NCBI GenBank assembly: GCA_002189035.1
Contig: CM007989.1
Coordinates: 4,278,001 to 4,342,000 of the forward strand
Source of the DNA: Utricularia gibba
Lineage: Eukaryota > Streptophyta > Magnoliopsida > Lamiales > Lentibulariaceae
Direction: 5' to 3'
DNA length: 64,000 nucleotides
The notes under the pieces were generated by a model that was given only the letters and a program-made list of their open reading frames with translations, had not been told where the DNA came from and made no database searches. The translations under genes and the position numbers were made by a program. Numbering within the stretch: position 1 is the first letter of the stretch; the number at the start of each line of letters is the position of its first letter. This document shows, one piece after another, positions 680 to 47,544 of this stretch.

Positions 680-2077
680 AATTGGCGAATGACTACGTCC
701 AAATAGAGAGGAAACAAAATCTGCGAAGACCAAAAAAAAAAAAGAATCTACCAGAAACTTCCGCACAAGTGATCCTCGTGGGAGAGGCAGCCGTCTCAGG
801 CGCACCATTCCGCAGACTATCCAAATCGGAAATCAAAGGCGTTTGTCCAAACAACCAGCCGCACTTTCGCCGCAAGGACAACTCTTCTCATTTCATCGAG
901 CGGTGCTACTGGCTCTGGCTTCTACCTTGGGGAACAAGACAGTGCTCAACATTCAACCCTGGCAACGGCTCGCGACCCGCGAACCCGGTTCAAAAATGGT
1001 TGTCAGAATTGAGAGAGACATCGTTGGCTCTCATCGAACCGGGTCTTGTCAAATCCACGATAACAAGACCCGAAAGCCGTTATTTGACCCATTTGGTTAC
1101 GCATCCACCAATTTGTACCACATTCAATTTGCATAAATTCATTTCTAATGAGTTTGGTATGCTATATTAAGTAGAAAATATTCATAAATATATACAAATT
1201 TTGGGGTTAGAATTGGAATTTGACATCTATTCTAGGATATACCAATCTCATTTTTCTTATAATTCATTTTACATTAAAAATAATGAATAAATAATTATAT
1301 TTTCATTTAATGAAATGTTCCGCATCCATATATTCTTAATCCATTTACGTATACCAATCAAAAAATTTCCCAAATATATATTTAAATCTCACAATATAAC
1401 GGGCCGTGATGGTTACTGGGCCGTGATCATGGGCTTGAATTAGTGAGCAAACAGCCCAACCAAAATTAGGATGCTACAACTTGAAGACGTGTGACTTTTA
1501 ATTTTAATTTGGATTTAATGTATGATTTCTTTTAATTTACTATTAAATTAATATTTTTTAATGCGAAAAACATTAATTAATAATATCAAGTGTAACAATC
1601 GAAAAAAATGTTTGATATGTAAAAATAGAAATAGAAACAATTTTTTTAAATAGATATAAATGAGAAAAAATATTTTAATATAGATATATTTAACTTTTAT
1701 CATCCACATACTTAAAAAATAAGTATGTGAGTGGTATATTCATACAAAATTGGCCTACATATACTATAATTAATATGTAAGTGATATTATCATGTAAACT
1801 AGTTAATTAAATAATGATTTATATATAAATTTGAATATAAATCTTATATACTATATATTACCAAACAACACTGCGAAACCCTCCATTTGAGCTACTAAGT
1901 GAGTGTGTAAATTGCTATAGAAACCAATAGTGTGGTTGTAGGAAGAGCATGAGTGAAACACGCAGGAGAATAGAGCAGTCTCATTATTGCCATTTGAGAT
2001 TTATTTTACATTACCACATATTACATCACAGATTACAGACAACGGCATCGGGGAGACTGGAGAGCGTTCCTCGTAAT

Positions 2078-2798
2078 CTAGGGCTTGGTTTGAGCTTCAG
2101 TGTCCTTCTGTCCATCTGCTCCTAGCCACCCATGGCCGCCGTGTCTGTGCCCGTGTCCGTATCTAGGCCAGTAGTGATCCTCAGCAGCGTCTCCGGCATC
2201 TTCTTGAGGTCCATCTGCTCCTAGCCACCCATGGCCGCCGTGTCTGTGCCCGTGTCCGTATCTAGGCCAGTAGTGATCCTCAGCAGCGTCTCCGGCATCT
2301 TCTTGAGGTCCATCTGCTCCTAGCCACCCATGGCCGCCGTGTCTGTGCCCGTGTCCGTATCTAGGCCAGTAGTGATCCTCAGCAGCGTCTCCGGCATCTT
2401 CTTGAGGTCCATCTGCTCCTAGCCACCCATGGCCGCCGTGTCTGTGCCCGTGTCCGTATCTAGGCCAGTAGTGATCCTCAACAGTATCTCCGGCATCTTC
2501 TTGAGGTCCATGTCCTCCATGCCACCCATGGCCACCGTGTCCGTACCGGGGTCTACGCCAGTAGAGATCCTCACCCACGCCTTGTGTGGCAGCTAGTAAA
2601 AACACCCCACAGAAAATAAATACACAATCCAGACGATGAGTTTAAGCACAAACTAGTTTCTCAGCAAGGAGGAAGCACAAGCATCCACTTACATGCATCG
2701 TCGCTCTTCTCAGCAAGATCTCTCGCAGCCACCTGCGAAGAAAGGAGAACCAGCGCAGCTAAGAAGAAACCGCACAAGAGAAGTGACTTAGAAGCCAT
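2078..2798 (-). CDS. Secreted Gly/His-rich protein with tandem 33-residue repeats (GRP-A)
   Basis: Two exons: 2798-2693 and 2592-2078, with a GTAAGT donor, a CTAG acceptor and phase 1, giving 206 residues. Residues 1 to about 25 form a signal peptide (MASKSLLLCGFFLAALVLLS, cleaved near VAA), followed by RDLAEKSDD, a start typical of plant glycine-rich cell-wall proteins. The rest alternates basic Gly/His/Tyr stretches (RYGHGHRHGGHGW) with acidic spacers (PQEDAGDAAED). Four near-identical 33-residue units lie in the C-terminal part. I infer an apoplastic, possibly metal-binding protein from the dense HGGHG clusters; no enzymatic domain is visible. It is paralogous to the genes at 46830-47502 and 45569-45962, with the same intron phase. 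A TATA box lies 35 bp upstream of the ATG. The exact family name is not recognised. Confidence 0.82.
2112..2507 (-). repeat. Coding minisatellite, four 99-bp units
   Basis: Near-identical 99-bp units begin at about 2112, 2211, 2310 and 2409, inside exon 2 of the Gly/His-rich gene. The period is a multiple of three, so each unit adds 33 residues in frame. The three left units look almost identical; the fourth differs at a few bases (aacagtatc for agcagcgtc). The repeats in the unit 2 paralogue are far more diverged from one another. Confidence 0.95.
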
Positions 2799-2832
2799 TT
2801 TGGGGATGAAGATGGAGGAGAAACCCCTCACC

Positions 2833-2840
2833 TATTTATA
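2833..2840 (-). promoter_or_regulatory. TATA box of GRP-A
   Basis: TATAAATA on the minus strand, 35 bp upstream of the ATG at 2798, implying a very short 5' leader. The same box with the same surroundings stands before the unit 2 paralogue at 47537-47544. Confidence 0.72.
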
Positions 2841-4549
2841 GGAGAACAACAGGGCATAAGTGTTGTTAATAGGGTATATTATTTAAACGTTGTTTTTAAA
2901 TACAAAATGTGTTTTAAAATTATTTGATATGAGAGTTTAAAATAAGTGGATTAAATTTTATTTGGAATAATTTTTTATTCTAAATAAGTATTACGAAATT
3001 AGTTTTATTGTAAAAAAAAAAACGATTGAATTTTATTTTAGAAACAAAATTAAAAATTAAAAATATTTTTTAATGATAAATTATTGACCACTATTTAAAT
3101 CGGTATACCAAATTTTGTTATTTTTAATTTTTATAAGAATTAAAAAGTGATTTTAATAACATATAAAATATGGATATGTATTAAATTTCTATTTTTTCTT
3201 GAAATATAAATAACTTCTTTTTTAAACAAAATTGTTTCATTCAAACAGTATATTGTTTATTATGTATAAATATCGGCTTGCTTGACATTTGGTATCAAAT
3301 CTTGATAATAATTTGGTTTGAATTTTCGAGAATGCATTTTCGCATCGTTTCGAATGTTACAAATCAAAGATTCATGAATTATCGTTGTCATAAGAAACAT
3401 ATTTAATTTATAGCTTACTACAAATTACATCTAATGAGACGTTTGATAGACGTGTTTAGATGTTTAAACATATGTGTATTGATAATAATGAATATTTAAT
3501 AATAATGATTTTTAATATATGAATGCTTTGTAAAACAATTGCAAAGTATTCCAAACTAAGTATTTCGAAATTCAACTTCTATATTAGTTCTGTCAATCAA
3601 ACCAAGTTTAATAAAAAGTTATAAATTGTCTTTTATCATCAATGTTTATAAACTATATATTTTATAAACACATATAGTAAGCTTAATAAAAGTTTGGGTA
3701 CATATGTTCAAAACCTATGTATCAACAATATATACTTATGTAAATATAAATAATTAAAATATATTATTAGTTAGATTATTGTACGGAACACCCCGTTACT
3801 ATGATTCGAATTGGTACTGATATCTCCCATATTCATTGCACCTGGACGCTTTCTAAGGTACTGCTTCTCATGATTGGCGCTCCGATTTCCTACGGTTCAT
3901 CGCACCCGGACGATTTCAGGAATCAACAAGCGTCCCATTTTTAACCGCATTCGGTATATAGTTTTATCTGCATTTTATTTTTCACAAAAGTAATATTATT
4001 GAATGATGTAGTAAGGCTGCTTTGACGTGTATTACATTAGATAAGATTTACATTTCCGCCCCAATCATATCATTTCGAGCTTGAAAGAACTTATAATTTT
4101 AGGCTGTAATTAATTTTATTGCATCAATGCAAGAATAAGAGAATACTCATAAGAAAATACAATGGCATGAAAATCTTTTACTTTGAAGAATTAAAAGATG
4201 AAATAAAATGATATTAATATAATAACATATTATCAATTTATAATTGAATATGAATGCAATCTATAATATAACTCAAATAATTCTAATTTTTAATTTAATC
4301 AAAATTTAATATAAACATTAATAATCATTTAGGAAATCATGGAATATAGAAATAATTGGAAGATAAAGATTAAAAAATCAGAAATAACATCTAGTATAAA
4401 AAAGTATACATTATTTTCTTTACTATATACTATATTGATTCTCTAGATAAAATTTTATCCATTAATCAGTACTTACTATAACTTTAATTTTTCATTACAC
4501 ATAACTAGGGTGGAGTGATGGAACATATTGTAGATCAAAAGGGGCTCAG

Positions 4550-4565
4550 CCCCCCCCCCCCCCCC
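4550..4565. repeat. Poly-C tract (16 C)
   Basis: A run of 16 C following ggggctcag. The equivalent tract in unit 2 (49166-49174) has 9 C. Confidence 0.95.
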
Positions 4566-5344
4566 TCTAATAATAGTTAATTTAAAAAACAGATGTATTT
4601 TTTAAAAAAATCATTAACAGTTGATTATAGCGATTGGATTAAATTGGAATCACTTCAAAATAAAATAAAATAATTATGATTTGATATTTTAGTTAAGAAA
4701 TTATTTTTTTACACTTTTATTTATTGATTTATTTATTTCGGGTGAATTTGGGATAACTATGCATGCATTAGTCAAAGAAGGCTGCCTCCATAGGAATGAA
4801 AGGGGCTGCTGAGCTACTCCACTAACCGAGTGGCTGCTGTTTTTTTTAAAAAAATTCAAGTAATAAATTCAAACTCAGGAATAGTTGTTGTCTGTCTGAT
4901 TGATAAGTCGAAAGGGAATATAAATTAATAGATAAATAATACTGTATTCTATTTCTGATTAAATCAAAAGCTCAACCGGTTCAAACCGTCCATTTTTTTT
5001 AAACCTTTGAATAATGTGAATAAATTTTCTAGAATGATCTTAAATAATTTCTATAAGATTATATTGTAAATTAAATATATATATTTTTTAAAAATAGAAG
5101 TAAATAGTGAGTTGAGTTAATTCTATTTAAATGTGGATGCTATATTTTTAGACAATAATATCCTTAAATTTAAAACTCAATTATTTTTATGCCCTTTTAA
5201 TTTTTTAATTATAATTAAAAAGTAAAATTAGTATTTTCTTTATTTCATCAATTTTCCTTAATTTAATGAAATATAATAATCAACAATCATTTTTCTTATA
5301 AAGACAAGTGTTAATTCTGTAAATGCATAGATCGGCTAGTTATT

Positions 5345-6145
5345 CACATGGCAAATCTGCTTCACACGATAAATGCCTTGTGCATCCTTCAGCAGCTTCA
5401 GCAAATGTAAGCATGAGTTCCACCTATTTTCAAAATAATTAAAACTTAAAAATTCTCTAATTGAAGAGATAAAACAAGGTATTTACAGAAATAACTCAAA
5501 TGTATATCACTATCCATACTTTCAGCTCCATTTTCAAATATCTGCAACATTCACAAAGAAACAAGGATGTCGGTATTTGGGAACAATTTATAGAAAGCAG
5601 CCAAACTTTCCAAGAAACATGGAAGCAGCAAAGGAAGTACCTCAGAGAATATTTCATGGAAGGAATCAGAAAACCTTGTCCTATGCTCAAATCTAGCACC
5701 ATCCTCATCCCTTGTTGAATGCATAGGATCCTGGTACCATCCAGAATAGTTTTTCATCTGTTTTATATCAGCATTTCCAAGAATAAATAATCAGAAGTTT
5801 TTCAAACTGCGATTGGAAATCAGTATGAAGGTGGATTCCATAATAATCTAAGGAAAGAAGTTAAAAAAAAAAACCTTATCATATTGAGATTTCTTGTCAG
5901 GATCTCGCAGAGTCTGCAGTTACTACCATAAAAAAAGCAAAGTTTAGAAAAGAACTACGTCAAGAATGTTAGAAAAGCAGAAGCCTATGAAAGACCTCAT
6001 ATGCATCTCTAATCTCTTGGAATTTCCTCTTTGCAGAAACATTGTTCTTGTTTGCATCAGGATGTTACTTCTTTGCGAGCTACATTGACAAGCATAGAAA
6101 GTAAAAAATACCATTAGAAATCATATAAAAAAGAATGGTACTTAT
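5345..6145 (-). pseudogene. Broken second copy of the ATJ1-like DnaJ gene (internal exons)
   Basis: Exons recognisable in order: about 6084-6001 ([22 protein letters not shown]), 5913-5875 (TLRDPDKKSQYDK), 5757-5641 (KNYSGWYQDP to SFHEIFSE), about 5544-5495 (IFENGAESMDSDIH) and 5423 to about 5345 (VELMLTFAEAAEGC to DLPC). They match the J-domain, linker and start of the client-binding region of ATJ1. Damage: TAC has become TAA immediately before HPD; the donor after DIH reads TTGAGT where GTGAGT is expected; the last exon stops inside coding sequence at the duplication breakpoint, so the zinc finger and C-terminus are missing; and the first exons are absent, replaced by the transposon nest starting at 6146. 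The first 194 bases of the window are almost identical to 5952-6145. Confidence 0.88.
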
Positions 6146-6157
6146 TGTTGGTGTGTG

Positions 6158-16107: not shown

Positions 16108-17456
16108 TGTTAAGTGTCATTTTCTTATTATTTCTTAGGTTGTTTTTATGTTTAAATGTGATTCGAAGTGTCTAATTAGGAGTCTATAATGTGAGATTTG
16201 GGTTTTTATCTAGTTTAGGGTAATTATCCTAAATCTTGTATTTTATCTATTAATTTTACTAGTTTTAATTGAGATTTTTCTAGAGGCGCACACGTGGCAG
16301 GAAGTGAGAGAAAGAGGGCATCAGATGGCGATAAATTGGATCTTCCTGAGCTGACATTCCCTTGATTTCCGGAAGACTGCAGATGCCTAATCATGAGCCT
16401 TGACGTGCGGAACACGAAAGTCTCTGGCAGGCGGCATCATTAGCGTACCAGTGTCAGACAGTGCTTGCAAGTCATCCCAAGTTCAACAGAATCATAGGGA
16501 CACGAAAGCTCAGACTCTCAATGAAGTTCAGTTTTGTTCAGACAAGTTTAGTTTTTTTTTCAGTTTAGTTTTCCCTTTTGTTTCTCTCTCTAGAGGAATT
16601 TTCCTCTAGCTTCTCTCTAGAACCTTGTTTGCGTTTCCTTTAGTTTGTATGACCGTTCGTGGCTAGAAGCTTCCGTTTCTGGGTTGGAACACCCCCAGAT
16701 CTATGTATCGTTAGCTTATCTTCACATTTTGTCTGAATCCGAACGGGTTTCGTATGTCTTCGCGCGACTATGTTGCAGTCTTTCTGTAACAGTCCCCTTG
16801 TTCAAGGTTCATGGTTAGCTGATCACTACCCACGGATTTTGGAGAGGAGCAAGGTGGAAAACACCAACTCGAGCCCTTTTGGCAGGAAGAAGACAACGTT
16901 TTGTCTGTAGCCATACTTCAGGATTAATGGACAGGTAGTGACCTCGTATATGAACTCATTGGGTCATTGGCAACACTCGGGCACACGCGCGCAATTCGGC
17001 CGTGAGGGTACGCTGGCAGGACCTCTTATTCTCACGTTCGTCCAAGGAGGAGCAACATCGGGCTATTCCTGTGCCTTCTTGCAAGAGAGTGTAAGGGAGG
17101 GTAGGCTATTCCTTACTCATATAACTGAGTACTCGAGAGGACCAGAGAAGAGTGAAGACGCAACGAACATAGCTGGACAGGATTCCAAACCCAGGAACAT
17201 TTACTTTATTTAAGGTTCATCGCTTACGCTTATTTCAGTTCTCTCTTCAAAACCCTCTAATTCCCTTACTCAAGCTTCATCACCAACGTTTCTCACACCT
17301 TTTACCTTCAAAACCGTTTACAAATCGTGACAGTTGTATTCGGGGTGCCTCACCTTTCACTCAAAAACAACTCCCTATGTTTGACACCCGTACTACGCTT
17401 TTGTGTTTTACGAGTTTTAAAGGTATTAAAATTTGTTGTGGAAACGACACGCATCA
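16108..17456 (+). mobile_element. Solo LTR, family X, in Copia-A RT
   Basis: 1349 bp beginning TGTTAAGTGTCATTTT and ending GACACGCATCA, flanked by a perfect 5-bp duplication aggac (16103-16107 and 17457-17461). It interrupts the conserved Copia text IKDLGPAHFFLG. It matches 21064-22373 in inverse orientation and, more distantly, the LTR at 33073-38987. That third copy is followed by a gtgtggggg-type polypurine tract, typical of Athila/Tat Gypsy, which fixes the sense direction. Confidence 0.92.
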
Positions 17457-18067
17457 AGGACCTCGGACCTGCACATTTTTTCCTTGGTGTTGTACTTATG
17501 TGCACTGATACAGGGTTGCATCCTTCTCAACAAAAGTACACACTGGACATTATACAAGGTGCTAAGTTGAGTGATTTGTAGGAGTACGAGGTCCTTGCAC
17601 TCTTGCCTTGTAACTTTAAATTTGCTGATGATAGTCTTCCCCTTCCTAGTCCTGAAGCTTATCGTGCCCTGATTGAGCAGTTACTATATCTCAGTTTTAC
17701 ATGCCCTGACATTGCCTTTCCGATTCAACAGCTTTCACAGTTCTTGCAACATCCCACTGAGGAACACATGTGCACTACCAAGTGTATTCTCGGCTATCTA
17801 TCATGTACCGCCTCTCATGGCCTTTTTTATCCTCTGAATGGGAATCTCACCCTCTCTGGATATTGTGATGCTGACTAGGGAGCATGCAATCTCACTCACA
17901 AGTCCGTCACTGGGTATTGCATGTTTCTGAGGGATCGACTGATTTCTTGAAAGACCAAGAAACAAGCCATGGCTTCTAAATCCTCCACAAAGGCAAAGTA
18001 TCAGAGCCTAGCTTCTGCCACCATTGAATTATTATGGATTTCCTATATATTGAAGGATCTGCAACAA
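17457..18067 (+). pseudogene. Copia-A RT C-terminus and RNase H, first part
   Basis: IKDLGPAHFFLGVVL, HPSQQKYTLDIIQGAKL, FTCPDIAFPIQQLSQFLQ, and the RNase H start SGYCDAD*GACNLTHKSVTG, KQAMASKSSTKAKYQSLASA (Lys in place of the catalytic Glu) and LLWISYILKDLQQ. Cut at about 18068 by hAT sequence. Confidence 0.85.
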
Positions 18068-21058: not shown

Positions 21059-21063
21059 ACAAT

Positions 21064-22373
21064 TGATGCGTGTCGTTTCCACAACAAATTTTAATACTTT
21101 TAAAACTCGTAAAACACAAAAGTGTAGTACGGGTGTCGAACACAGGGAGTTTTTTTTGAGTGAAATGTGAGGTACCCCGAATACAACTGTCACGATTTGT
21201 AAACGGCTTTGAAAGTAAAAGGTGAGAGAAACGTTGATGATGAAACTTGAGTAAGGGAATAAGAGGGGTTTTGAACAGAAAACAGAAATAAACGTAAGCG
21301 ATGAACCTTAAATAAAGTAAATGTTCCTGGGTTTGAAATCCTGTCCAGCTATGTTCGTTGCATCTTCACTCTTCTCTAGTCCTCTCGAGTACTCGGTTAT
21401 ATGAGTAAGGAATTGCCTACCCTCCCGTACACTCTCTTGCAAGAAGGCACGGGAATAGCCCGATATTGCTCCTCCTTGGACGAACGTGAGAATAAGAGGT
21501 CTTGCCAGTGTACTCTCGCGGCTGAATTGCGCGTGTGTGCCTGAGTGTTGCCAATGATCCAATGAGTCCAAATACGAGGTCACTACCTGTCCATTGATCC
21601 TGAGGTACGACCACAGACAAAACGTTGTCTTCCTCCTGCCAAAAGGGCTCGAGTTGGTGCTTTCCAACTTGCTCCTCTCCAAAATCCACGGATAGTGATC
21701 AGCTAATCATGAACCTTGAATAAGGGGACTGTTACAGAAAGACTACAACATAGTCGCGCGAAGACATACGAAACTCGTTCGGATTCAGAGAAGAGATGAA
21801 GATAAGCTAACGAAACATAGATCTGGGGGTGTTCCAACCCAGAAATGGAGGTTTCTAACCACGAACGGTCATACAAACTAAAGGAAACGCAAACAAGGTT
21901 CTAGAGAGAAGCTAGAGGAAAAATCCTCTAGAGAGAGAAAAACAAAAGGGATAACTAAATTTAACTAATACCTAAGGTCTAAATAGAATGGAACTTCAAT
22001 GAGAGTCTGAGAATTCGTGTTCCTGTGATTCTGCTGAACTTGGGATGACTTGCATGACATTAGTACGCTAATGATGTTGCCTGTCAGAGACTCCCGTATT
22101 CTTTACGTCAAGGCTCATGATTAGGTGTCAGCTCGGGAAGATCCAATTTGTCGCCATCTGATGCCCTCTTTCTCTCACTTCCTAACACGTGTGTACCTCT
22201 AGAAAAACTCAATTAAAACTAGTAAAATTAATAGATAAAATACAAGATTTAATATAATTACCCTAAACTAGATAAAAACCTAAATCTCATATTATAGACT
22301 CCTAATTACACACTTCTAATCACATTTAAACATAAAAACAACCTAAGAAATAATAAGAAAATGACACTTAACA
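21064..22373 (-). mobile_element. Solo LTR, family X, in Copia-B
   Basis: 1310 bp, TGATGCGTGTCG to GACACTTAACA on the plus strand, with a perfect 5-bp duplication acaat (21059-21063 and 22374-22378). It is inverted with respect to the copy at 16108-17456. Its long minus-strand frames are near-identical to plus-strand frames of that copy but match no protein; they are LTR sequence, not genes. Confidence 0.93.
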
Positions 22374-22449: not shown

Positions 22450-24246
22450 CTCATTCACCGATCTGAGGAAGAGTGGCATCTGACTAATTGATAGTGGCTG
22501 TAGTCACCACTTGTCAAAAGACAGGAACACGTTCACCTCCTTTGTGGACATCTATGACAAAACAATAGAAGTAGTGAATGGACAACATATCTTTGTAAAA
22601 GGATGAGGAAACTTCTGTTTGGAGACAACCCAAAAAATCATCAAAATAGCAGATGTGTATTATGTTCCAGAAGTATCACATAATCTCATCAGTACAAGGC
22701 AACTGATCGAGAAGGGACTTAAGGTGATACCACTTTGTTTTTGGGGAGAGGCCGTAAACACGGTAGTTTACCTACTCAATCGCTTGCCATCTAAAGGTGC
22801 CAAGGACGGATGATCACCTTATGAAATTTGGAACAACAAGGTGCCTGACATGACTCACATCAAAGTCTCCACTCCCTGTGATATATCCACATTCCAAAAG
22901 AAAAAAGGATCAAACTAGACATGAAATTTGACCTAGGAATTCTGTTGAGATATGGGGACACCAGCAAAGCTTATCGAGTCTTAAACCTGAAAATGAATAG
23001 AGTAGAGCTGACCCAAGGTGTAATTTTAGATGAAAGCAAAAACTATGATTGGAAAAAATCAGCTCTTGTCTCAACGGACTCTAACTACTATTCTGATCTC
23101 TCGGCTCTATTTCCTAACATTGAGGAGGAAAACCAATCAATATCCTCCAGGCAACACCATATAGTTGACTCCTCTGATTCCACTCAAACTCGCATCCTTG
23201 AGCTGTCACCTTTGAGATTAGAAAGTGGAAGAGACTCCGAGAGTATTCAAGATGATTGTCTCTCTCAGAGCCTGAAAGCAACAGAGTGCATGAACCTAAT
23301 GAAGAAGAATATTTATAGTACCTCACTAATGAATCCAATGAAGACGATCTCTCTTATCAAAATGACAACTCTGGTTTCGTCCCAAGACTACTGCAAGAAA
23401 TTTCAAACTCTAAGACACATGATCATGAAAGAGACGAAGAAAAAAAATCTCTATGCCCGATATGTTCCCCATTTCACTAAAATGAGCCCTGAAGATAATG
23501 AAGACTATCATGAGAACAGTGATCCACCTCTCCTACCCAAATACAGAAATATTGGAGATATCCTTGACAAGTGTCTTCTGATCTACAAACCTATCAGTAA
23601 TCAAGAAGCATTAAAAGATCCAGAGTGGAGCAAATCAATGTATGAGGAACTAACCTCTATTGAGAAGCATGATGTATGGGAAGTAATCAATAAACTTGCA
23701 AATGCCAAAGTCCTTGGTCTCAAATGGATTTGAAAACCGAATCTGAACTTGGACTACACCATAAATAAGCTGAAATCGAGATTAGTAGCTCTAGAGTACC
23801 TTCAAAGGGCAGGGGTGGACTATGTCGAGACCTTTGCTCCAGTAGCTCGACTTGATACTATAAAACTGGTGTTTGCAATGGCAGCAAGTTTTCGCTGGAA
23901 GTTGTATCACTTGGTCATTAAATGTGCCTTCCTCAATGGAGAACGCCACGAAGACATTTATGTCTATCTGCCACCTAGTTTCAAAATCAAAGTAGGCAAA
24001 AACAAAGTGATGAAACTGAAAAAGGCCTTGTACGATTTAAAGCAAGCACCCAAGGAATGGTATGGGACTATAGATGCTTACTTTATTGAACTAGACTTCA
24101 TGAAAAGCAAGAGCGACACTACATTGTATATCCTAGAGAATTCCAGAGGCAAAGTTATAACTCTGTATGTCGATGATATTCTCATTATGGGAAGCAATAC
24201 TGAGCAGATTGAAAAGCAAAAGGAGCTTCTGAAGACATATTTCTAA
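22450..24246 (+). pseudogene. Copia-B protease and reverse transcriptase; integrase core deleted
   Basis: Protease LIDSGCSHHLSKDRNTF, then VYYVPEVSHNLISTRQLIEK. The next codons jump straight to FWGEAVNTVVYLLNRLPSKG, the end of integrase, so the whole integrase core is deleted at about 22735. Downstream, 22921-23733 and 23749-24246 hold the linker and RT: EWSKSMYEELTSIEKHDVW, YLQRAGVDYVETFAPVARLD, KKALYDLKQAPKEWYG and the catalytic TLYVDDILIMG. The RT ends abruptly after LLKTYF. Confidence 0.87.
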
Positions 24247-32847: not shown

Positions 32848-34785
32848 AATGGTATCGAAGCTGTGGTTTGACCTCGTGTATAAGAGATTTCAGCTATTCA
32901 AACTATTGTTAACCTCTCTGTATTTTCTGGTTTTCTGGTCTTCTGGATTTTCTGGTTTTCTTAGACTTCTGGACTTGTAATCTTTATATTTATCTCTTTG
33001 GATTTCTCAAGCGTTATTTGCTACTTTGTTGTGAAAATATCATTCAGACAGCACACTATGGCAACCATAACATGTGTGTTGTGTGTCGTTTCCTCAATAA
33101 ATTTTGAATATTTAAAACATAAAACAGAAAAGAGCGTAGTACGAGCATCGATTTGAGAGAGTTGTTTTTCGTGAAAAGTGTTTTGTAGAAAGCTTTTACA
33201 AAATGTCACGGTTTTGCAAATGTGAGTTTTTGAGATGCAGAAATAAAATTTACAACCTAAGTGATGGGCATTAACTACGGGACGTAATTCCTGGAAATGA
33301 GATTCCGTCTCCTTCCTTTTTCTATTCTCGCCTCGGTTTTCACTCATTCCTTCTGAATAGCTGATTATAGAAGCAAAGAATAGCTTACTCTCTCTTACAC
33401 TCTGATTGACAAGGAGACAAGGGAATAGCCTCATGTGATTCCCCCCTTGGACAATCAAGAAGACAAGAGGATTGTCATCGATTGCCTTCAAAACCAAATT
33501 GCACGCATGTGCCCAACTGTTGCCAATGGCCAATGGCAGGTTCAAGGTCACAACATGTCCATTGTCGCGGTACCTAGGCCACAAACAATCTGCTACTTCC
33601 CTCGAATCGGTAGGGTTGGAGTTGGTGCTCTTCACCTTGATCTTCATCAAAATCCGCGAGGAGTGCCTACTACTCATGAACCTTGAGTAGGTGTCGTTAC
33701 AGAAAGACTGCAACAAGATGCGTGGAAGTATGCAAAATCCAAAATGAATTCAGCGAAGAACTGAGTGTATTACTTAGGACTTGGAAGGAAACTTCATCTT
33801 CTCCCAGAAACTAAAAGGTTTTAGCCACAAAGGGCTATAAAAACATAAACGAAACCCTTCCAAAAGATCCGAAAATAAGTATTTCAAGTTGCTTTTATCT
33901 CACGCCTCACATGCATTAACTCCTTTGAGTTCCCTTCCCATCATTCCTTCTGTCTTGTGCGCCACCAGCTTTTCTTTACATGCAAGTTAGTGCCCAATCA
34001 TTTATGTAGACTCTGACATACCGTAAGTCAAGGGTAGAGATGTCAATGGGTCGTGGTCTACCCAAACCCGAACCGAAACCAACCCGAACTGGTTCAGTTT
34101 CGGGCCAAGAAATGCTAACTATTTTTCGGGTTCGGGTTGTTTGACATGGACCCAACAAGCTATCGGGTTGGGTTCGGGTTTAGCTTTCTAAAACCCGTAG
34201 ATCCGGATCCGAACCGATGCACAAATATTTTTAAAATATTAATAAAATTTAATTTCTTAATGGTCTTAATAAGTAATATATCCTTAACCCTAATTCATCT
34301 TTTCAACTTTTAAAATCATCACAGTGGTAACTTGAAGAGTATATACTGCATCATTTTCGAATTTCTGTTTTGCAACGCTTTGAATTGTGGTTGAATATTT
34401 TTTTTGCTTTTTTTGTTCAATAGTTCTGTGATTATTTTTTATTGTTTTTTTTATTGATTAACTTTTTTCCCATTTTTGACTTGCATGCTCCAATCGATAG
34501 ATGGGTCTCTTATTGTGCATTTTTTATTTTTTAGTTTTAGGGTTTAGCGAGCAATAGATGGGTTTCTTAATGGCTAGTACCACTAGCTAGTAAGCACACC
34601 ACACACACCATTTGAATATGGAACTAAAATTATTATTTTTTAGAAAAAAGTTTCTTATTTTTTAGAAACTTTGAATTTTGAAATAACCAAGTTTTAGATA
34701 TTACTTTTTGTTCCTTTTTTTACCATTTCATATAAAATCTAAATTCCTAATTCCAACCTTATGTTTGTATTTTTAATTTCTATAG

Positions 34786-37700
34786 ATGACATCTCAGCAA
34801 GACAGTTCACAAGCATGCATTCCGTTATTGGGATCTCTAGATCAAGGTAGCGGTGGAGTTGATGATGATAATGATCAAGTGAAGGAAGCTGTTGAAATTT
34901 CAGATGATGACGGTAGAATCTCTAAAAAAAGAAAACTAAAATCTCATATATGGGAGCACTTCAAGCGATTCCATGATGATAAGACAAATGAATGGAAAGC
35001 TCAATGCACAAAAAAGTCATGAGTGGAGATACAAAAAATGGTGCGAAATCTTTTAAAAGACATTTCAAAGATACTATGAATATTAAGCAAGCTATTTTGA
35101 AGATGGGAAACTCTGGAAATATTGAAAAATTTGTGTTTGATCAAGATCAATCAAGAGAAAACTTTGCAAAACTGATTATATTGCATGATTATCCACTAAG
35201 TATGGTAGATCGTGTTGGTTTTAGGAATTTTTGTGCTAGTTTGAATATAAGTTTTAAAGCTATTACCAGAAATACATTGAGGTGTGATGTTCTTACTCTA
35301 TATGCCAAGTATAAATCCATGTAATACAAAGAGTTAAAAAAGGTAAAAAGTTGAATTGCTGTAACAACTGATATGTGGACATCTCAGAATAACAATAAAG
35401 GATTTATGGCAATTACGGCTCATTAAATTGATGAGAATTGGTCATTGAAAAGTTTTATTCTAAGGTATATTTTATTTGATGAATATGATCTTGATAGTGA
35501 TTATTGGCTATTGCACTTTAAATTTAATGCAGTATTTTTTTTTTCCAAATTTGTATTTGTTCTTGCACCACATACCGGAGAAGCAATTTCTGGAGCTTTG
35601 GTAGAAACTTTTGTTGAATGGAATATGGATCGTAAATTATGTATAATTACAGTGGACAATTGTTCAACAAAATGACAAAGTTCTAGGTTTACTTCTACAT
35701 AAACTTATGAGAAAGGATTTGATCTTAAATGGGAAGATACTTCATGTACGCTGCAATGCTCACATTCTTAATTTGATTGTGCAAGTAGGTTTGACAGAGA
35801 TTGAAGGTGTGATTGATAAAATGCGTGCTGGTGTAGTGTATTGGACAACTTCAGCGAACAGAGTTGAAAAATTTGAGCATGCATGTCGCCAATGCAATAT
35901 TCCTTATGAGAAGAAGTTATCTTATGATTGTAAGATTTTTTGGAACTGATAAACGGAAATTTCCAAATATCGTTGCAAAAATAGAAATTTTGTTATCAAA
36001 TAAATTTATAATCCCTAATCTACACAAAATACAAATTTAGAAAACTTGTATAGTGGATATCGGGGTCGATCATGAAGAGCTTGTGCTTGCTAAGTGTTTT
36101 AGTAAATGCATAATTTGGGATAACATGAAGTCTTAGTCTAAGCTCGGACCAACAATGGTAAACAAGTTCGGTAAATAAGATAAGTAAACAATATCATGTC
36201 TTAATGCTAAGGTAACAAATACTGGTTCTAACTTAGAATAATACTAAAATGCCTTAAGGGTCTGCAGGTGGTGTAGTGTCAAAATCCCTAATTTAATCTA
36301 TCATGTTCCCACATTAACAACTTCAAATAACCTAAGTCTACCCAAGTCATTCACCATGTTTTCGGCTAAGCTAGTCCCCCATATTATCACAAACATTGCA
36401 ATTAGGTCTACCCGCATGCAAAGCATATATAACTAGGTCTACCCGGTTCTACTAGTTCCACCCCGAACTAACACCTACTGCTCACGTCTTCATTTGTTAG
36501 TCTACCTATAAATCAAGCATCTATGTTGTGAATCTATTTGTTCCTCTCCTTAGGTCTACCCATGGTTTGATAGAAACAAGAGCTAAAGAACAATGGTAAA
36601 TTTTATTAAGATTCCTAGATCCACACCACCATGCTTCACCTCAAGGCACTCATAGGGTTTAGCTACTCATGCTTTGAAGGTAAAATATGATAACATTAAC
36701 ATAAAGCAATGAAACTGTCAAGAACATTGTGAAAGAGTTGGCTGCAGAAACTGAAAACATCAACAAACGAAAATAAAGCAGTAAGAGTGCTGGTTTCCGT
36801 CTGCTACTGTTCTCTAGCCGGAACAGTAGCTCTAGATTGGGCTCTTATGCTGTTCTTGAGTATGAAGATCTTCTTCTCCTCTCCTGATTCAGTACTCGTC
36901 GTGTTGAGGGAGAAGCCCCCTCCTCGGGTCTGCCTATCTTCTCTTCCTTCTTCCTTCTCCAAAAATAACTTCACATTTTTTTTCCATTTTTCAAAATCAT
37001 TCCACTGTTCCTAACATCTATACTGTTCCTGGCGTAAACCTGCAGACTGTAGGCGGCTGAATAGTGCATTATGTCTCCTCTTTTAATGCTGTTCATTCCT
37101 CCAAATCTCTACATGCACGAAATTCATGTCTCCTCCCTAATTTTATAACTTTTCTACTGGACTAGAAAAAATGTTAATAACATGGGATGGGTTAAATTAA
37201 AGGATTTAACCCATTAACACATAAAATCACATTATGTCCTAAAATTTTGTAAAAATATTAAAAACTATAAGATAAACACTTAAAACATGATTCAAAAGCA
37301 TAATTTTCTTACTCTAATAATAGAAAAATTTGTGTGTTATCAGGAACTCTACTTATTTAATGCTGAAATCTGTCTTCCCTTATAAAGATGTATTTCCAAG
37401 ACTTTCTCAAATGGATAAGGGGTACAAAAACCCTCCTAATGATGAAAATTGGATAGAGGCAATGAAAGTAGCTGAGCACTTGCAAGTATTCCACCATGCA
37501 ACTTTAGTTTTCTCTGGTACACAATATCCTACTTCAAATCTTTTTTTTTCATACAGTATGTGATATGAAAATCAAGCTTCATAATTGGGAGAAAAGCTCA
37601 GATGAAATAGTTTGTAAGATGGCAAGTAAAATGATAGTGAAGTTCTCTAAATATTAGGATACATGCTATTTATTATTGGGAGTAGCTGCTGTTCTTGATC

Positions 37701-38368
37701 CGAGGTATAAAATGAAAGTGGTGGAGTTTTATTTTCCCTTGATTTATGGATATGATTCTGCAAAAAAAATTAAAGAATTCTGGAAAAATGTTGAAGATTT
37801 ATATGATGAGTACAAATCTCGGTTTGATTCTGATATTCTCTCAAACAATTTTGGTGCTTCTAGAAAAAATATGACTTCATCTTGCTCCATTATTTATGAT
37901 TATGATGATCAAAATATTTCAATGTTTGATCAATATATGGCTCAAGGGATTGAGAATTTCAGTGATTCTAATGTCTCAAAACTAGACTCTTACATAATGG
38001 AACCAATAGTATCAAAAAAGGATAACTTTAATATACTTTCTTGGTGGCAACTATATGGAAATTCATATCCTATTTTGAAGAAGATTGCCATGGACATTTT
38101 AGCTATTCCTATTTCCACCGTTGCTTCGGAGTCTGTATTTAGCATGAGTGGAAATATTGTTACGGATATTCGAAGTAGACTTGATGATGATATTTTGGAA
38201 GCTTTGATGGTTGGCCGTCATTGGGCTTGGAATGACATTAATGGTAAGTACAAGTTTAATAAGATTATTTGTGTGTTTATGTTATTGATTTACTTTTTGT
38301 GTTATTGCTTTTATTGTTTCAGGAGCATGTTCTACAAGAGAGTCTTCTGCATGGGTGCAAAAACATGA
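34786..38368 (+). pseudogene. hAT transposase, zinc finger BED / RICESLEEPER-like, interrupted
   Basis: The N-terminal frame (34786-35022) ends with a BED-finger start SHIWEHFKRFHDDKTNEWKA. The frame then shifts (Cys pair lost) to AKSFKRHF and FDQDQSRENFAKLIILHDYP. Further pieces: AVTTDMW-like text near 35360, SGALVETFVEWNMDRKLCII and VDNCSTK (second Asp) near 35655, and ILHVRCNAHILNLIVQVGL (35735-35795). The solo LTR cuts after DCKIFWN; coding resumes at 37343 with GYKNPPNDENWIEAMKVAEH, AAVLDPRYKMKVVEFYFP and the C-terminal dimerisation domain LSWWQLYGNSYPILKKIAMD and ASESVFSMSG (catalytic Glu region). Several stops and an in-frame intron-like region make it non-functional. Confidence 0.88.
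35947..37342. mobile_element. Solo LTR, family Y, in the hAT transposase
   Basis: 1396 bp, TGATAAACGG to GTGTGTTATCA, with a perfect 5-bp duplication ggaac (35942-35946 and 37343-37347). It is related throughout to the LTRs of the Athila-like element at 9376-15144. Confidence 0.93.
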
Positions 38369-39234: not shown

Positions 39235-42200
39235 TATAAAACTACAAAAGATCTTTGAGATGCTTTGAAAGCTATCTGTTTGACTAAGTCACTCTCCAAA
39301 AAATTGAGTCTCAAAAAGAAACTATATTCTCACAAATTAGTTGAGGGAGGCTATCTTGAAACTCACTCAAGGTCTTTAAGGAACTTGTTGCTGATTTGAA
39401 TGCAATGGGAGCTAAATATGAAGAAGAGGATCTGAGTATCTTACTGTTATGCTCACTCTCTACTTCATATGAGCACTTTGGAGACACTATTGTGCACAAG
39501 GACCACCTATACATTGAAAGAGGTGTATGAGAAGCTCTAATCCATAGAGACATCTGAGAAGCTCTATTACTACAGCATCAGACACACATGATGAGAGTCT
39601 GCTGGTTCGTGGGAGGACATCTGAGAAACAAAATGCTGATGAGAAAAAGACAGCTCGATCAAAGTTCAGACACAGGAATAAAATATGCAACTTCTGCAAG
39701 AAAAAGGGCCATATAAAAAAGGATTGTCATAAATGGCAGAACTCACAAAAGAAAGAAGAAGAAAAGAAAAAGGATGAGAAGAAAGTTTGGAAACCTGTCA
39801 ATGGTGAAGCTAGCTATGTAGTCAGAGACAATGACAGTGGCCTGTTAATACTTGAAGCGGAACAGGAGGCTGGTGTATTATCTATGACACAGAAGTAAGA
39901 GCGGTTTAAAGACTGATGGTTCATGGATAGTGCATGTACATTCCATGTTTGTCTGAAAAAGGATTGGTTCACCACTTATGACCCTCATATTGAAGATTCA
40001 GTGTTTATGGGAGATAATTCTGCAAAAGAAGTAGTTGGTATTGGAACCATTTGGATAAAGATGCATGATGGAGTAACTCGAACACTCATGGGTGTTAGAC
40101 ATATTCCTGAGATAAAAAAAAATCTTATCTCCTTGTGCAGCTTAGAGGAGAAAGGCTTCACTTTCACTGGTAGTAATGGTGTACTTAAAGTGAGCAATGG
40201 CTCACCTATTGCAATGAAAGGAGTATAGGGGCCTTCTAAATTATACATCTTGCAAGGCATTACTCAAGCAAGTGAAATAAATATAGTGACAAGTAGTACA
40301 TCAAGCGACGCAAGAAATGCTTTACTCTGGCACTTGAGACTTGATCATATGAGTGAATAAGGGCTGAAGACCTTAAGCGAATGTGGTTTGCTCAATGGAC
40401 AGAATATTAGTAATCTAGAATTTTGTGAGTCATGCATCATGGGAAAGAGAAAAAGAGTCAGATTTAAGAAGGGAATACACAACATATCAAGTCCACTCGC
40501 CTATGTCCACTCGGACTTGTGGGGTCCTACTTCTACTCCCTCATCTTCGGGAGCAACTTTCTTCATGAGCATAATAGACACCTACTCAAGGAAGGTGTGG
40601 ATTTTCTTCTTAAGACATAAATAAGATGCTTTACAAACCTTTAAGGACTGGAAGAACATGATCGAAAAACAAACCGACCTGCAAGTAAAGAAGCTTTGGA
40701 CAGACAACAGTCAAGAGTTTTGCTCCTCTAAATTTGAGCAATATTGCAAGAAAGAAGGGATCCTTAGAGACAAGACGAACCGACATACGCCATAGCAGAA
40801 CGAAGTAGCAGAGAGGATGAATAGAATAGTTATGGAGAAAGTAAGGTGCGTGCTCTTTATTGCAAAATTTTGGACAGAAGCTAGAAACTATGAGAACATT
40901 AAAATATTTAGCTCCCTAGCTTATGCTCTTGTTGACAATGGCAAAGTCAAGCCACATGCCCTCAAGTGTGTATTCATTGGCTTCAAACCAGAAGTGAAAA
41001 GATACAAGTTGTGGTGTCCTACATTACATAGAGTCATAACTAGCAGCGATGTAATATTTAATGAAGAAAATATGATGATAGAAAAATTCAAGACGACTTA
41101 TGAAGAATCAAGCAACCTGAATTTTGAGAGTCAATCGCATAATAAAGTTGAGTTGACTGCTGATAGCAATCAACAACAGCTAGAAACCAGTCAACAATCA
41201 TCTTCAAGTGTTCAAGAAACAAATCAATCCACCATAGGTTAGAATCCATTGCAACTGGTAGACCAAGAAGAACAATACATCCGCCAAGTCGCAATGCTGA
41301 GGCAGACTGTTTGGCTTTTGCATTCAGTGCAGCTGATGCAACATAGCATAATGATAAACCAAGCAGCTTTCAGGCTGCTATAAAATGCAAGGATGCTAAT
41401 AAGTGGTGGACTGCAATGGAAGATGAGATTGACTCAATGAAAAAAAATAATACATGGACTTTGATGATGCTACCAGAGGGCAAAAAGGCCATAAAAAATA
41501 AATGGATTTACAGAGTTAAGCCTAGAATCCCTGGAATCAAAGATGTGAGATTCAAGGCACGCGTCATTGCCAAAGGATTCAATCAGATACCAGGGATAGA
41601 TTTCAGTGATGTCTATGCGCCGATGGTTAAACTCACTACGATTCAATGTGTTTTAAGTATAGTTGCGGTGATGGATCTCGAACTGCATCAAATGAACGTT
41701 AAGAAAGCCTTCTTTAATAGCAACCTTGATGAAGATATTTATATGGAACAGCCAGATGGCTTCATTGCCAAGGGGAAGGAACACATGGTGTGCATGTTAA
41801 ACCGAGCTCTATATGGTTTAAAGCAGTCTCCCCGATAGTGGTATAAAAGGTTTGCTATGTTCATGTTAAATCTTGGTTTCCAAAGAAGTGAGTATGACTT
41901 CTATCTATTTATTAAGGGCAACGTAAAGACTGTCTTCATTTTTCTAATGATTTACGTTGATGATATGCTCATAGTGTCAAATGATCTGAAATTGATTCAA
42001 AATCTAAAACAGCAACTAGCCAGTGAATTTGAAATGAAAGATCTGGGGGAAGCAAACAGAATGTTGGGAATAGATATATGTAGAGACAGGGTGAAGAAGA
42101 CTCTTCACCTCAATCAAGCAGCATATATCCAAAAGCTACTCGACGGGTTCAATATGAACAACAAAAAACCATTCATGATACCCCTAGCACAACATTTCAA

Positions 42201-42918
42201 ACTGACTATGGAGCAAACACCAAAAACTGATGAAGAGAGAAGACTGATGGAAGGTATACCTTAATCGAATGTTATGGGATCACTCATGTACTGTACGGTG
42301 TGCACCAAGCCAAAACTGTCTTATACAGTGAGTGTGATCAGTAGATTTATGGCTAACCCGGGAAAAACTCATTAGCAGGCTGTTAAATGAGTGCTACGTT
42401 ATCTAAGTGGAACTAGATTTCTTGGACTCAATTTTGGCTCTAAGACTTTAGAGGTGATTGGATTTTGTGATGCAGATTTTACAAGTGATATTGATCGCAG
42501 GAGATCCCTCACAGGTTATTTGTTTACATCAGCTGAAAGTGCCATTTCTTGGAAGGCGATGCAATAGCCAACAATCGCACTCTCAACCACTAAAGCTGAG
42601 TTTATGTCTTTAATCGAAGCTCTCAAGGAAGCCACGTGGCTGAAAGGTTTATTCACAAAAATTGGTTTATCAGAAGCAGTTACAAAAATAAGGTGTGATA
42701 GCCAGAGTGCCATTTTCTTGGCAAAAGAACCTTTCTTTCATAACAGAGTAAAGCATATCGACGTTTGTTACCACTTCATCAGAGAAATAGTGGAAAGCGG
42801 ATTTGTTATAGTGGAAAAGGTATCGTCTAAAAAAAATGTGACTGATAGTTTGATCAAGTCGTTGAGGTGTACTAGGTTCACAACTTTAATGAACCTAGTT
42901 GAATTGTGCAGGAAATAA
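39235..42918 (+). pseudogene. Copia-D gag-pol, decayed
   Basis: Domains in order: gag end; zinc knuckle CNFCKKKGHIKKDCHKW (about 39688); protease MDSACTFHVCLKKDW (39923, the DSGA motif altered to DSAC); pre-integrase FCESCIMGKRKRVRF; integrase LAYVHSDLWGPT, IDTYSRKVWIFFLR and LWTDNSQEFCSSKF with a deletion after MEKVRCVLF; RT FKARVIAKGFNQIPGIDF, ALYGLKQSPR and MIYVDDMLIVSND (catalytic pair intact); RNase H IGFCDADFTSD, STTKAEFMSLIEA, DSQSAIFLAKEP and KHIDVCYHFIRE. Single stops break the frame at about ten places, for example after GLKQSPR and in RRL-EGIP. RT and RNase H are the best-preserved retroelement domains in the window. Confidence 0.9.
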
Positions 42919-43170: not shown

Positions 43171-43971
43171 TGGTGTTGGACGGTGATGTTGAAACTGAGA
43201 AAAATCAGAAGCACCAGGGACCTGAGGCAGAACAGCGTGAGCCGAAGGGAAACGATGCGAGGGAGGAAAACTGTCGCAGAAAGCCCCTCACCAGAAATCA
43301 GAGGGAAAATACAGATACTGGACTTATTGTTATGGGCCCAATAAACAGTATACCAGATCACATATGGAAGCAGAAGTTCGTTGAGCCCTGCAATGTCCCA
43401 AGCCCAATCCAGTAGAGAGCATCCTCTCCCAGGAGATGACCGTTCTGCTGAAGGAGAACTGAAACAGAAATTCTCAAAGGATAAGATATCGCGAATCACA
43501 CAGCCTAACGGCTATTTTTCTGCTCTATAAATATGGCTTCGTTGTAAAGGAAAAATATGCTATTTTGTAGCTGAAAAACCTCAATACAATATCCAAAAAT
43601 CTCCAACAACAACATCCATTCCCAAACAGCAACATCAGCAAAAATATCCTGTCAACCTTCATTACCACATTGGAAATCATCTATTCTACCACTGACCCCA
43701 TTCAGACTTCCAATAGATGGAAGAAAGCAAGACGAAAAGGCAGAAGCCTTATCCCCTATATATATGCATACGTGTTCATCTTCTTCGCAGGGCTGAGCTA
43801 GCAGAAAAACTGTAACCTCATCGTTGATTTCCTCTAGTAAACAACGTTCCATTGCCCGCGGTTTTTCCCTTTGGGTTTCCACATAAATTCTATGTTGTTT
43901 TTACTTTCTTGCTCAAAACACACAAAACAGATTAAGAAACAGGAATGCAAACTAACGGTCAGTTTATAACA
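43171..43971 (+). repeat. Copia-D right LTR
   Basis: Probable start TGTTGGACGGTG near 43171 and end TTTATAACA at 43971. It has its own promoter-like ctataaata near 43526. Its last ~215 bp match 32633-32847. Unit 2 sequence follows immediately at 43972. The left end is less certain than the right. Confidence 0.75.
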
Positions 43972-44097
43972 CTTTCCAAATCGGAAATCAAAGGCGTTTG
44001 TCCAAACACGTGGCCGCACTTTCATCGCAATTATGACTCGTCTCATTTCATCGGGCGGTGCTACTAGCTTTGGCTTCTGCCTTGAGGAACAAGACAG

Positions 44098-44462
44098 CTA
44101 TGTTTTCAACCCAGAATTTTTCCATCACCCGGAAATCTTCTGGGTTCGGGTCAGCCTGGCTCAAACCGGTCAAACCCGATCAAATCCAGTCAAACACAAT
44201 CTACACAGTACAATAAGTAGTTTGGAATAGAAATGGAATGTTTAAGAAATTCATATTTGTTAAAATTATAGCTATTTCAAGAACCCATAGAACATGATTA
44301 TTTGATGTAATGAAGAGAGAAGAGAGGTAATTGAAAATTTGAAAGGAAAATAGATAATTAAATTTGAAGGATATCTAGTTTAGGGTTAACCGCCCCAGAA
44401 ATCTTCCGGGTGCGGGTAACCCGGGTCAACCTGGCCGATTCCCGGCTGTGTTGAAAACATAG
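44098..44462. mobile_element. hAT-type MITE, 365 bp
   Basis: Terminal inverted repeats CTATGTTTTCAAC at the left and GTTGAAAACATAG at the right, flanked by a perfect 8-bp duplication caagacag (44090-44097 and 44463-44470). Unit 1 has a single caagacag at 935-942 and no insert, which proves the insertion boundaries. There is no coding capacity. Confidence 0.97.
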
Positions 44463-45568
44463 CAAGACAGTGCTCAACATTCAACCCTAGCAATGGCTTG
44501 CGACCCACGAACCCGATTCAAAACTGGTTGTCAAACTTGAGACATCGTTGGCTCTCATCGACCCAGGCCTTGTCAAAAATACGAGAACAAGACCTGAAAG
44601 CCGTTATGTGACCCATTTGGTGATGCATCCACCAATTTGTACCACATGCAATTTGCATAAATTCATTTCTAATGTGTTTGATAGGTTATATTAAGTAGAA
44701 AATATAAATGAATATATAAAAAGTTTGGGGCTAGAATTGGAATTTGGCATCTATTCTAGGATATACCAATCTCATTTTCCTTATAATTCATTTTACATTA
44801 AAGATAATGAATAAATAATTATATTTTCATTTGATGTAATGTTCCGCATCCATACATTCTTAATCCATTTATGTATACCAATCAAAAAATTTCCCAAATA
44901 TATATTTAAATCTCAAAATCAAGCATATTAATTCATAGAAAAGAAATTAAATTAATATAACGGGCCGGGATGATTATTGGGCCGGGATCATGGGCTTGAA
45001 TTAGTGAGCAAACAGCCCAAAATGCGTCTAGGCATTCATTATACCCAATGAACACATTTGTTTATTGCCAACCAAAATTAGGATGCTACAACTTGAAGAT
45101 GTGTGACTTTAAATTTTAATTTGGATTTAACGTATGATTTTTTTAAGTTAGTATTAAATTAATATTTTTAATGCGAAAAACATTAATTAATTATAAAACA
45201 GAAAATGATGTCGTGAATTTAAATATGATTTTTCCCACTTGGTTTATCTTTATGGGTATGTCTGCTTTGGGAAAATTGCGACAAATGTTTTAATACGAAT
45301 ATTAGATTGGAAATAGATATATTTTAATGAAAAGTGTTCTAAAAATATGTTTTTTTGGTAAATTGAAATTAGGATAGGAAATATGTTGAATTCGACTATT
45401 GTTTTTTTAAAAAGAAATGATTATACCCTTTTTCAGAAAATATTGCAAACATCTATGTCTGATTTATTCAAATAACATGGATGGAAATTTACACGAGCAT
45501 ACCACGCATTCGAAACATGGATAAATTATTAAGCACAACTTGTGATGGAGACTGCTGTTCCGTACACT

Positions 45569-45962
45569 CTAGGGATCGACATCACGGCTCCCAAATCCGC
45601 CGCCGCGCCCATCTTCCCTGAGGATCTCAGTAGCGGCGGCAACAAGGGGGCCATGCCCACCACCATGCCCGCCGTGTCCGTACTTACCGTGTCCGTACCC
45701 GTACCTCCGCTCCGGCCCGCTGCCCTTTCCAAGGATGGCTAGCAAACCACAAAACCCAATCGTGAGTACTGAATTTTAGAGGAGCGGAGGCGCCACCCCG
45801 ATTACAACAACACTAATCTGAAACAGAGACATCACAGAAGTGCTTACACGCATCAGCCTCGCCGAGGAGTCCTCTGCCGGCAGCCATTTGTGAAGAAAAG
45901 AGAACCAGAGCAGCCAAGACGACGCCACGGAAGAGAAGCAGTAGTTTGGAGGAAGAACCCAT
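45569..45962 (-). CDS. Small secreted Gly/His-rich protein (GRP-C)
   Basis: Two exons: 45962-45848 and 45738-45569, donor GTAAGC, acceptor CTAG, phase 1 as in its paralogues, giving 94 residues. The signal peptide is MGSSSKLLLLFRGVVLAALV followed by LFSSQMAAGRGLLGEADA, clearly related to the MASKSLLL start of the neighbours. The mature part has RRYGYGHGKYGHGGHGGGHG, then PLVAAATEILREDGRGGGF, ending at TAG. It lacks the acidic-spacer repeats. No counterpart exists in unit 1. Splice sites are inferred from homology with the paralogues. It could be a recent pseudogene, but start, splice signals, phase and stop are all intact. Confidence 0.72.
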
Positions 45963-46829
45963 CCCGGGATTGGGATTGCCTGCCAGTCAATGGTTGCGGC
46001 TACGATTTTTATCCACGGAAAATCTGTCGTGGGGTGTGTGGCGGCTGGTCGTCGTCTCTTGTCCTTATCGGAATCATGACAATTACGTTTCGCCAAACCA
46101 AATAATTGCCGGATGTTGTCGGAATCGTGGATATACGAAACTTGGTCAAGCTTTGCGACTCGTCTTCTTTCTTTCTATTTATTTGCACGGTTATGATAAG
46201 TCCATACCACTGGAAACTTCAACAGGCATATTCCTATTTAAATATATTTGCACGGTTAGTATACTTAAATATATTGTAATTTGACATGTATATATTTAAT
46301 TATAAAGTATATAACAAATTACGTATTTGTTATACAAGAATAGAATGATGAGATGTAACAGTAAAAAAAGGTTTGATATATAAAAATAGAAATAGGAATA
46401 ATTTTTTAAATAGATATAAATAAAAAAATACATCTTGATATAGATATAATTAATCTGTCTCCTATTTGTTTATATCATACACAAAGTTAAAAAATGAGTA
46501 TGTGATTAGTATATTCATACAAAATTGACATATATATATACTATAATAAGTATGTAGGTGGTATAGTCATACAAGCTAGTTAATCAAATAATGATTTATA
46601 TATACTATTTTTAAACAACACTGCGGAAACCCTCCATTTGAGCTACTAAGTGAGTGTGTAAATTGCTGTAGAAACCAAATAGTGTGGTTGTAAGAGGAGC
46701 ATGAGTGAAACACGCGGGAGAATAGAGCAGTCTCATTATTGCCATTCGAGATTTATTTTACATTACCACATAGTACATCACAGTTTACAGACAATGGCAT
46801 CGGGGAGACTGGAGAGCGTTCCTCGTAAT

Positions 46830-47502
46830 CTAGGGCTTGGTTTGAGCTTCAGTGTCCCTCGGTCCGTGCCCTCCATGCCCACCGTGTCCGTACCAGGGTC
46901 TACGCCAGTAGTGATCCTCAACAGCATCTCCGGCATCTTCTTGAGCTCCATGTCCTCCACCCCACCCATGGTCGCGCCGGTGCTGGTATCTGGTGTAGTA
47001 ATTCTCAGCAGCATCTCCGGCATCTTCTTGAGCTCCATCTGCTACACGCCACCCACTGCCAGGGCGCCGCCGGTGGTATCCACCGGTGTAGTAATTCTCA
47101 ACAGTATCTCCGGCATCTTCTTGAGGTCCGTGTCCTCCATGGCCACCGTGCCCGCGCCAGTATCCACGGCGGTAGTAATCCTCAACAGCATCTCCGGCGT
47201 CTTCAGCATCTTCGTGAGGCCCGTGTCCTCCATGGCCACCGTGTCCGTACCGGGGTCTACGCCAGTAGAGATCCTCACCCACGCCTTGTGTGGCAGCTAG
47301 TAAAAGCACCCCACAGAAAATAAATATACATTCCAGACGATGAGTTTAAGCACAAACTAGTTTCTCAGCAAGGAGGAAGCACAAGCATCCACTTACATGC
47401 ATCGTCGCTCTTCTCAGCAAGATCTCTCGCAGCCACCTGCGAAGAAAGGAGAACCAGCGCAGCTAAGAAGAAACCGCACAAGAGAAGTGACTTAGAAGCC
47501 AT
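46830..47502 (-). CDS. Secreted Gly/His-rich protein, unit 2 copy (GRP-B)
   Basis: Exons 47502-47397 and 47296-46830 (GTAAGT donor, CTAG acceptor, phase 1), giving 190 residues. Exon 1 looks identical in sequence to unit 1, with the same 25-residue signal peptide. The mature protein has five loose repeats of a basic Gly/His/Tyr block (RYGHGGHGGHG, YWRGHGGHGGHG, YHRRRPGSGW) and an acidic block (PQEDAGDTVENYY). It ends RDTEAQTKP, where GRP-A ends QKDTEAQTKP. Unlike GRP-A its repeats differ from each other, so it looks closer to the ancestral state. The antisense strand is open for 199 codons across this exon, which I regard as a by-product of the repeats. Confidence 0.83.
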
Positions 47503-47536
47503 TTTGGGGATGAAGATGGAGGAGAAACCCCTCACC

Positions 47537-47544
47537 TATTTATA
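47537..47544 (-). promoter_or_regulatory. TATA box of GRP-B
   Basis: TATAAATA on the minus strand 35 bp upstream of the ATG at 47502, in a context identical to that at 2833-2840. Confidence 0.72.

Follow-up and report, generated by a model that had tools for sequence, protein, structure and literature searches.

Minisatellites are well described in genes for extracellular proteins, where slippage and unequal recombination are the usual mechanisms (PMC3899988). The yeast genes FLO1 and FLO11 have units of about 100 nt, whose number varies and alters the phenotype (PMC3899988). It is also a general observation that repeats within a protein diverge faster than those between orthologues (PMC5120217). 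For glycine-rich proteins that plants secrete, the family model PF07172 describes a signal peptide followed by a compositional, glycine-rich region, and false hits of this model are on record (PMC2912341). A literature search for glycine-rich proteins in Utricularia gibba returned nothing.

We analysed a 64-kb stretch of the U. gibba genome, subsequently referred to as the window (C1:4278001-4342000), and searched the complete assembly that contains it (100.1 Mb, 516 contigs; the genome size is about 100 Mb, PMC8333044). Two glycine-rich protein genes, GRP-A and GRP-B, lie about 44.7 kb apart in the two copies of one segmental duplication. The flanks of the duplication have diverged by 8.8% (K2P 0.094) and differ by 36 indels over 3084 aligned sites, in line with the common ancestor that an earlier, sequence-only reading had proposed for the two genes. 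No other good copies of the duplicated flank were found in the assembly. The features are as follows.

816-5288, plus strand: duplication, A copy (blastn self-comparison and alignment)
43971-49901, plus strand: duplication, B copy (blastn self-comparison and alignment)
2693-2798 and 2078-2592, minus strand: GRP-A gene, two exons, 206 aa, intact frame
2693-2798, minus strand: GRP-A exon 1, signal peptide region MASKSLLLCGFFLAALVLLSSQVAARDLAEKSDDA, 0 of 106 positions different from GRP-B exon 1
2593-2692, minus strand: GRP-A intron, GT-AG, 100 bp
2078-2592, minus strand: GRP-A exon 2 with repeat domain and the C-terminal tail DTEAQTKP (open frame, AG acceptor)
2110-2480, minus strand: perfectly 99-bp-periodic stretch coding for 33-residue units, 3.75 identical copies
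47397-47502 and 46830-47296, minus strand: GRP-B gene, two exons, 190 aa, intact frame
47397-47502, minus strand: GRP-B exon 1 (gene model)
46830-47296, minus strand: GRP-B exon 2 with four heterogeneous units (TRF, ORF and unit comparison)

The B copy of the duplication contains about 1.1 kb (approximately 45215-46314) without a counterpart in A, which reflects either an insertion in B or a deletion in A. GRP-A is bracketed by two direct copies of a DnaJ-domain gene fragment (about 810 bp, 95–96% identical); no such copy was seen beside GRP-B.

1-197 (continuing upstream of the window at L026:7391-8000) and 5342-6146, direct orientation: copies of the DnaJ-domain fragment

The space between the two GRP genes harbors remnants of copia-type retroelements (RVT_2) and of a hAT transposase (22921-24246, 39923-42918 and 37676-38368). 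There is also a pair of inverted repeats of about 1.35 kb (16108-17457 and 21063-22373, 89% identical) with a related open frame at 33021-33716, none of which had a Pfam match. By eye, the regions 58206-60065 and 62795-63574 resemble a UDP-glycosyltransferase gene and a piece of a COI1-like F-box/LRR gene, and the single open frames tested there did not match Pfam.

The array in GRP-A is the strongest in the window by a wide margin (2110-2541; period 99 bp, 4.4 copies, 97% matches, TRF score 808 in the 64-kb window), and the runner-up is the array of GRP-B (46908-47139; period 87, TRF score 297). Self-comparison at a lag of 99 gave an unbroken match of 272 bp, so that 371 bp (2110-2480) are periodic without any mismatch. 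The array consists of head-to-tail units well above 10 bp within an open reading frame, with a unit length that is a multiple of three, as is characteristic of a coding minisatellite. It encodes four 33-aa units of the form EDAGD(TV/AA)EDHYWPRYGHGHRHGGHGWLGADG(PQ), which bears out the near-identical, frame-keeping units described in the sequence-only reading. Outside the periodic stretch, differences are confined to the 5' header of unit 1, which deviates by 3 nt, and to the 3' junction, where the last unit lacks PQ next to the tail. The GRP-A array is thus more exactly described as 3.75 identical copies following one older header.

The units of GRP-B are quite different. Its four units, of 28–31 codons each, differ from one another at 19–39% of nucleotides, a strong divergence that had been noted before, and from the GRP-A units at 21–34%. 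A search of the assembly with the 99-bp unit found GRP-A and, weakly, GRP-B, and no further matches. The claim that the minisatellite is present in one paralogue only therefore holds for the homogeneous 99-bp form, but not for arrays as such, since GRP-B and most of the distant paralogues sampled possess arrays of their own.

These paralogues, on contigs C213, C508, C402, C375, C505 and C2, share the exon-1 type of the GRP pair. Short arrays of a glycine-coding type with periods of 12–57 bp occur in the stretches from C213, C508, C402, C505 and C2, while none was reported for the stretch from C375. Unit lengths and sequences thus differ from GRP-A, and the 99-bp unit occurs in none of them. 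That most of the sampled paralogues have their own arrays indicates that repeat turnover is normal in these genes. The C213 paralogue also carries acidic headers of the AGEVVAED type, which suggests that the two-part module predates the A/B pair. In the same paralogue (C213:236500-240500), exon 2 shows an apparent one-base frameshift next to a C run, and it is either a pseudogene or contains a residual long-read error.

With respect to the protein family, the N-terminal 61 residues of GRP-B scored 37.3 bits against PF07172, above the gathering cut-off of 30 bits, which two of the paralogues also exceeded. The full-length proteins remained below it (18.1 bits for GRP-A and 19.2 bits for GRP-B). 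As in PF07172 proteins, a glycine-rich exon follows a signal-peptide exon of the MASK...LLLSS..AARDLAE type in both genes; what sets them apart is a bipartite repeat domain composed of an acidic EDAGDxxED part and a His/Gly body. The hydrophobic N-terminus, read by eye as a signal peptide, is on a separate exon, and the mature proteins contain 21–23% glycine, 9–13% histidine, about 18% Asp+Glu and no cysteine. We regard GRP-A and GRP-B as intact sister genes for predicted small secreted glycine/histidine-rich proteins of the PF07172 kind. A search of solved structures with exon 2 gave no match, and the protein is low in complexity and probably disordered.

In the A/B alignment, exon 2 contains seven indels, each with a length divisible by three, whereas this holds for 4 of 36 in the flanks; the frame has thus been kept. 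Codons with replacement changes outnumbered those with silent changes in every comparison of A and B units, at ratios from about 2:1 to 13:0, although the counts are small (15 replacement and 2 silent codons for A2-B2, 10 and 6 for A2-B4). The same test within the GRP-A array has nothing to compare, as the copies are identical. Judging from these changes, the exact sequence of the repeats seems to be only weakly constrained. Most likely, the genes encode flexible proteins of the wall or apoplast, a role suggested by the family, in which exact repeat number and sequence would be under little constraint, in contrast to frame and composition. As a hypothesis, the sequence-only reading had ligand-binding or cross-linking capacity scale with the length of the array.

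When did the GRP-A array arise? At the flank rate, and with all sites taken as neutral, 17.4 changes would be expected in the 371 periodic bp, and none is seen (P ~3e-8). If only silent sites are counted, the expectation drops to 3.8 changes (P ~0.02), and the 95% bound from these sites permits an array age of up to about 80% of the age of the duplication. It is therefore well supported by the sequence comparison that the array was amplified, or continuously homogenised, after the duplication, as the sequence-only reading had argued. The description of the array as recent fares less well: it is probably younger than the duplication, but how recent the amplification is depends on the constraint on the protein, and under strong constraint a recent origin has only moderate support.

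The divergence among the GRP-B units amounts to two to four times that of the flanks. Most likely, therefore, the ancestral array was already heterogeneous. The headers of the units point in the same direction. The header of A unit 1 (ACT GTT) equals that of B unit 2 at 24 of 24 positions, the header of A unit 2 is closest to B unit 3 (23 of 24; A units 2–4 have GCT GCT), and the order of the variants agrees between the genes. Even the nearest pair of A and B units is 21% apart, so that none of the A units reaches the similarity to B that the flanks predict. Unit orthology accordingly rests on the short, 24-nt headers, from which it was judged, while the protein alignment of the units is gappy. 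The periodic stretch begins just 3' of the variants in the unit-1 header, which suggests that the amplified segment comprised one body and the next header.

A further feature of the pair lies upstream of the repeats.

2526-2911, unstranded: putative ectopic gene-conversion tract (counterpart 47230-47615; 3 substitutions in 386 bp)

At the flank rate of 8.8%, about 34 substitutions would be expected in this tract. It includes an identical run of 284 bp (2628-2911), for which the expected number at flank divergence is about 2e-9. A TATA-like box and the 5' leader lie within the tract, as do exon 1, the intron and 67 bp at the start of exon 2, and the tract ends where the array starts. The GRP-A and GRP-B introns show only three differences, all within 26 bp near the acceptor (2602-2627). 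Unchanged noncoding DNA adds up to 178 bp (113 bp upstream and about 65 bp of intron; P ~8e-8 at the flank rate). Such a bounded island of identity far above that of the flanks, noncoding DNA included, is the pattern left by gene conversion, and ectopic conversion between A and B appears to be the simplest reading of it. A recent exchange spanning the promoter, the first exon and most of the intron would be a new element of this locus, absent from the sequence-only reading. If it took place, the 5' similarity of A and B is unusable for dating the duplication, and the exchange would have stopped at the diverged repeats.

Taken together, the pre-duplication ancestor would have contained a mixed array of units with an acidic header and a Gly/His body. 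In GRP-A, head-to-tail amplification of one segment of body and header would then have produced about 3.75 identical copies in place of the older 3' units, presumably through slippage or unequal exchange. A separate process, ectopic conversion between A and B, would have homogenised the 5' part of the two genes as far as the edge of the array. We consider this history of an old duplication with a mixed array, followed by amplification in A and 5' conversion, and with a flexible wall or apoplast protein as product, to be highly probable as a whole. The array may have been shaped by slippage, by unequal crossing-over or by continuing conversion among its units.

It is conceivable that the homogeneous array is ancestral and that GRP-B diverged after the duplication through relaxed selection or decay. 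GRP-B is indeed richer in arginine, and the differences between units are mostly replacements. However, with units 19–39% apart between flanks at 8.8%, GRP-B would need a rate of change several times that of neutral DNA; moreover, its frame is intact, and the header variants of its units 2 and 3 recur in A in the same order. This makes an ancestral homogeneous array highly improbable. Nearly as improbable is an artefact in which the assembler, or the polishing of the consensus, produced the number or identity of the GRP-A copies. The copies, which come from a single assembly sequence, are perfectly identical, the published long-read assembly of U. gibba was built on PacBio reads (PMC8333044, PMC10663240), and the seeming frameshift at the C run of the C213 paralogue could be a residual error. 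But the array measures about 0.43 kb, far shorter than a long read. In addition, the assembly has no alternative contig carrying the array, the frame of GRP-A is intact, and unit-specific variants bound the array at either end.

Conversion would not be needed to explain the near-identical 5' tract if purifying selection acted strongly on the promoter, exon 1 and the intron. The tract does include a TATA-like box and the signal-peptide exon, but the noncoding DNA upstream (113 bp) and in much of the intron (about 65 bp) is equally unchanged, and the three substitutions cluster in 26 bp of intron by the acceptor. Furthermore, the tract aligns with the distant paralogue on C213 over only about 97 bp, at 79% identity. 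We therefore regard selection as an unlikely explanation of the tract. A different possibility, unlikely in our opinion, is that the GRP-A array is a hypervariable minisatellite that is still changing its copy number in living populations and thereby tunes, by dose, a putative secreted His/Gly-acidic wall or metal-binding protein, with recurrent conversion preserving the identity of promoter and signal peptide in the two copies. If so, homogenisation and diversification would go on side by side in one locus pair.

GRP-A shares with FLO1 and FLO11 a tandem array that keeps the reading frame, with closely similar units of about 100 nt, in a gene for a secreted or cell-surface protein. The yeast genes are unrelated to it, and their copy-number variation and its phenotype have been demonstrated, whereas GRP-A is known from one assembly. 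What the U. gibba locus offers is datable repeat turnover in a secreted plant protein: the duplication can be dated from its flanks, B as the sister gene retains the older mixed array, and the putative conversion tract ends at the array edge. The pair is thus suited to testing how such repeats evolve. It overturns nothing known; GRP-A is a clear, fresh example of ordinary coding-minisatellite evolution and does not represent a new kind.
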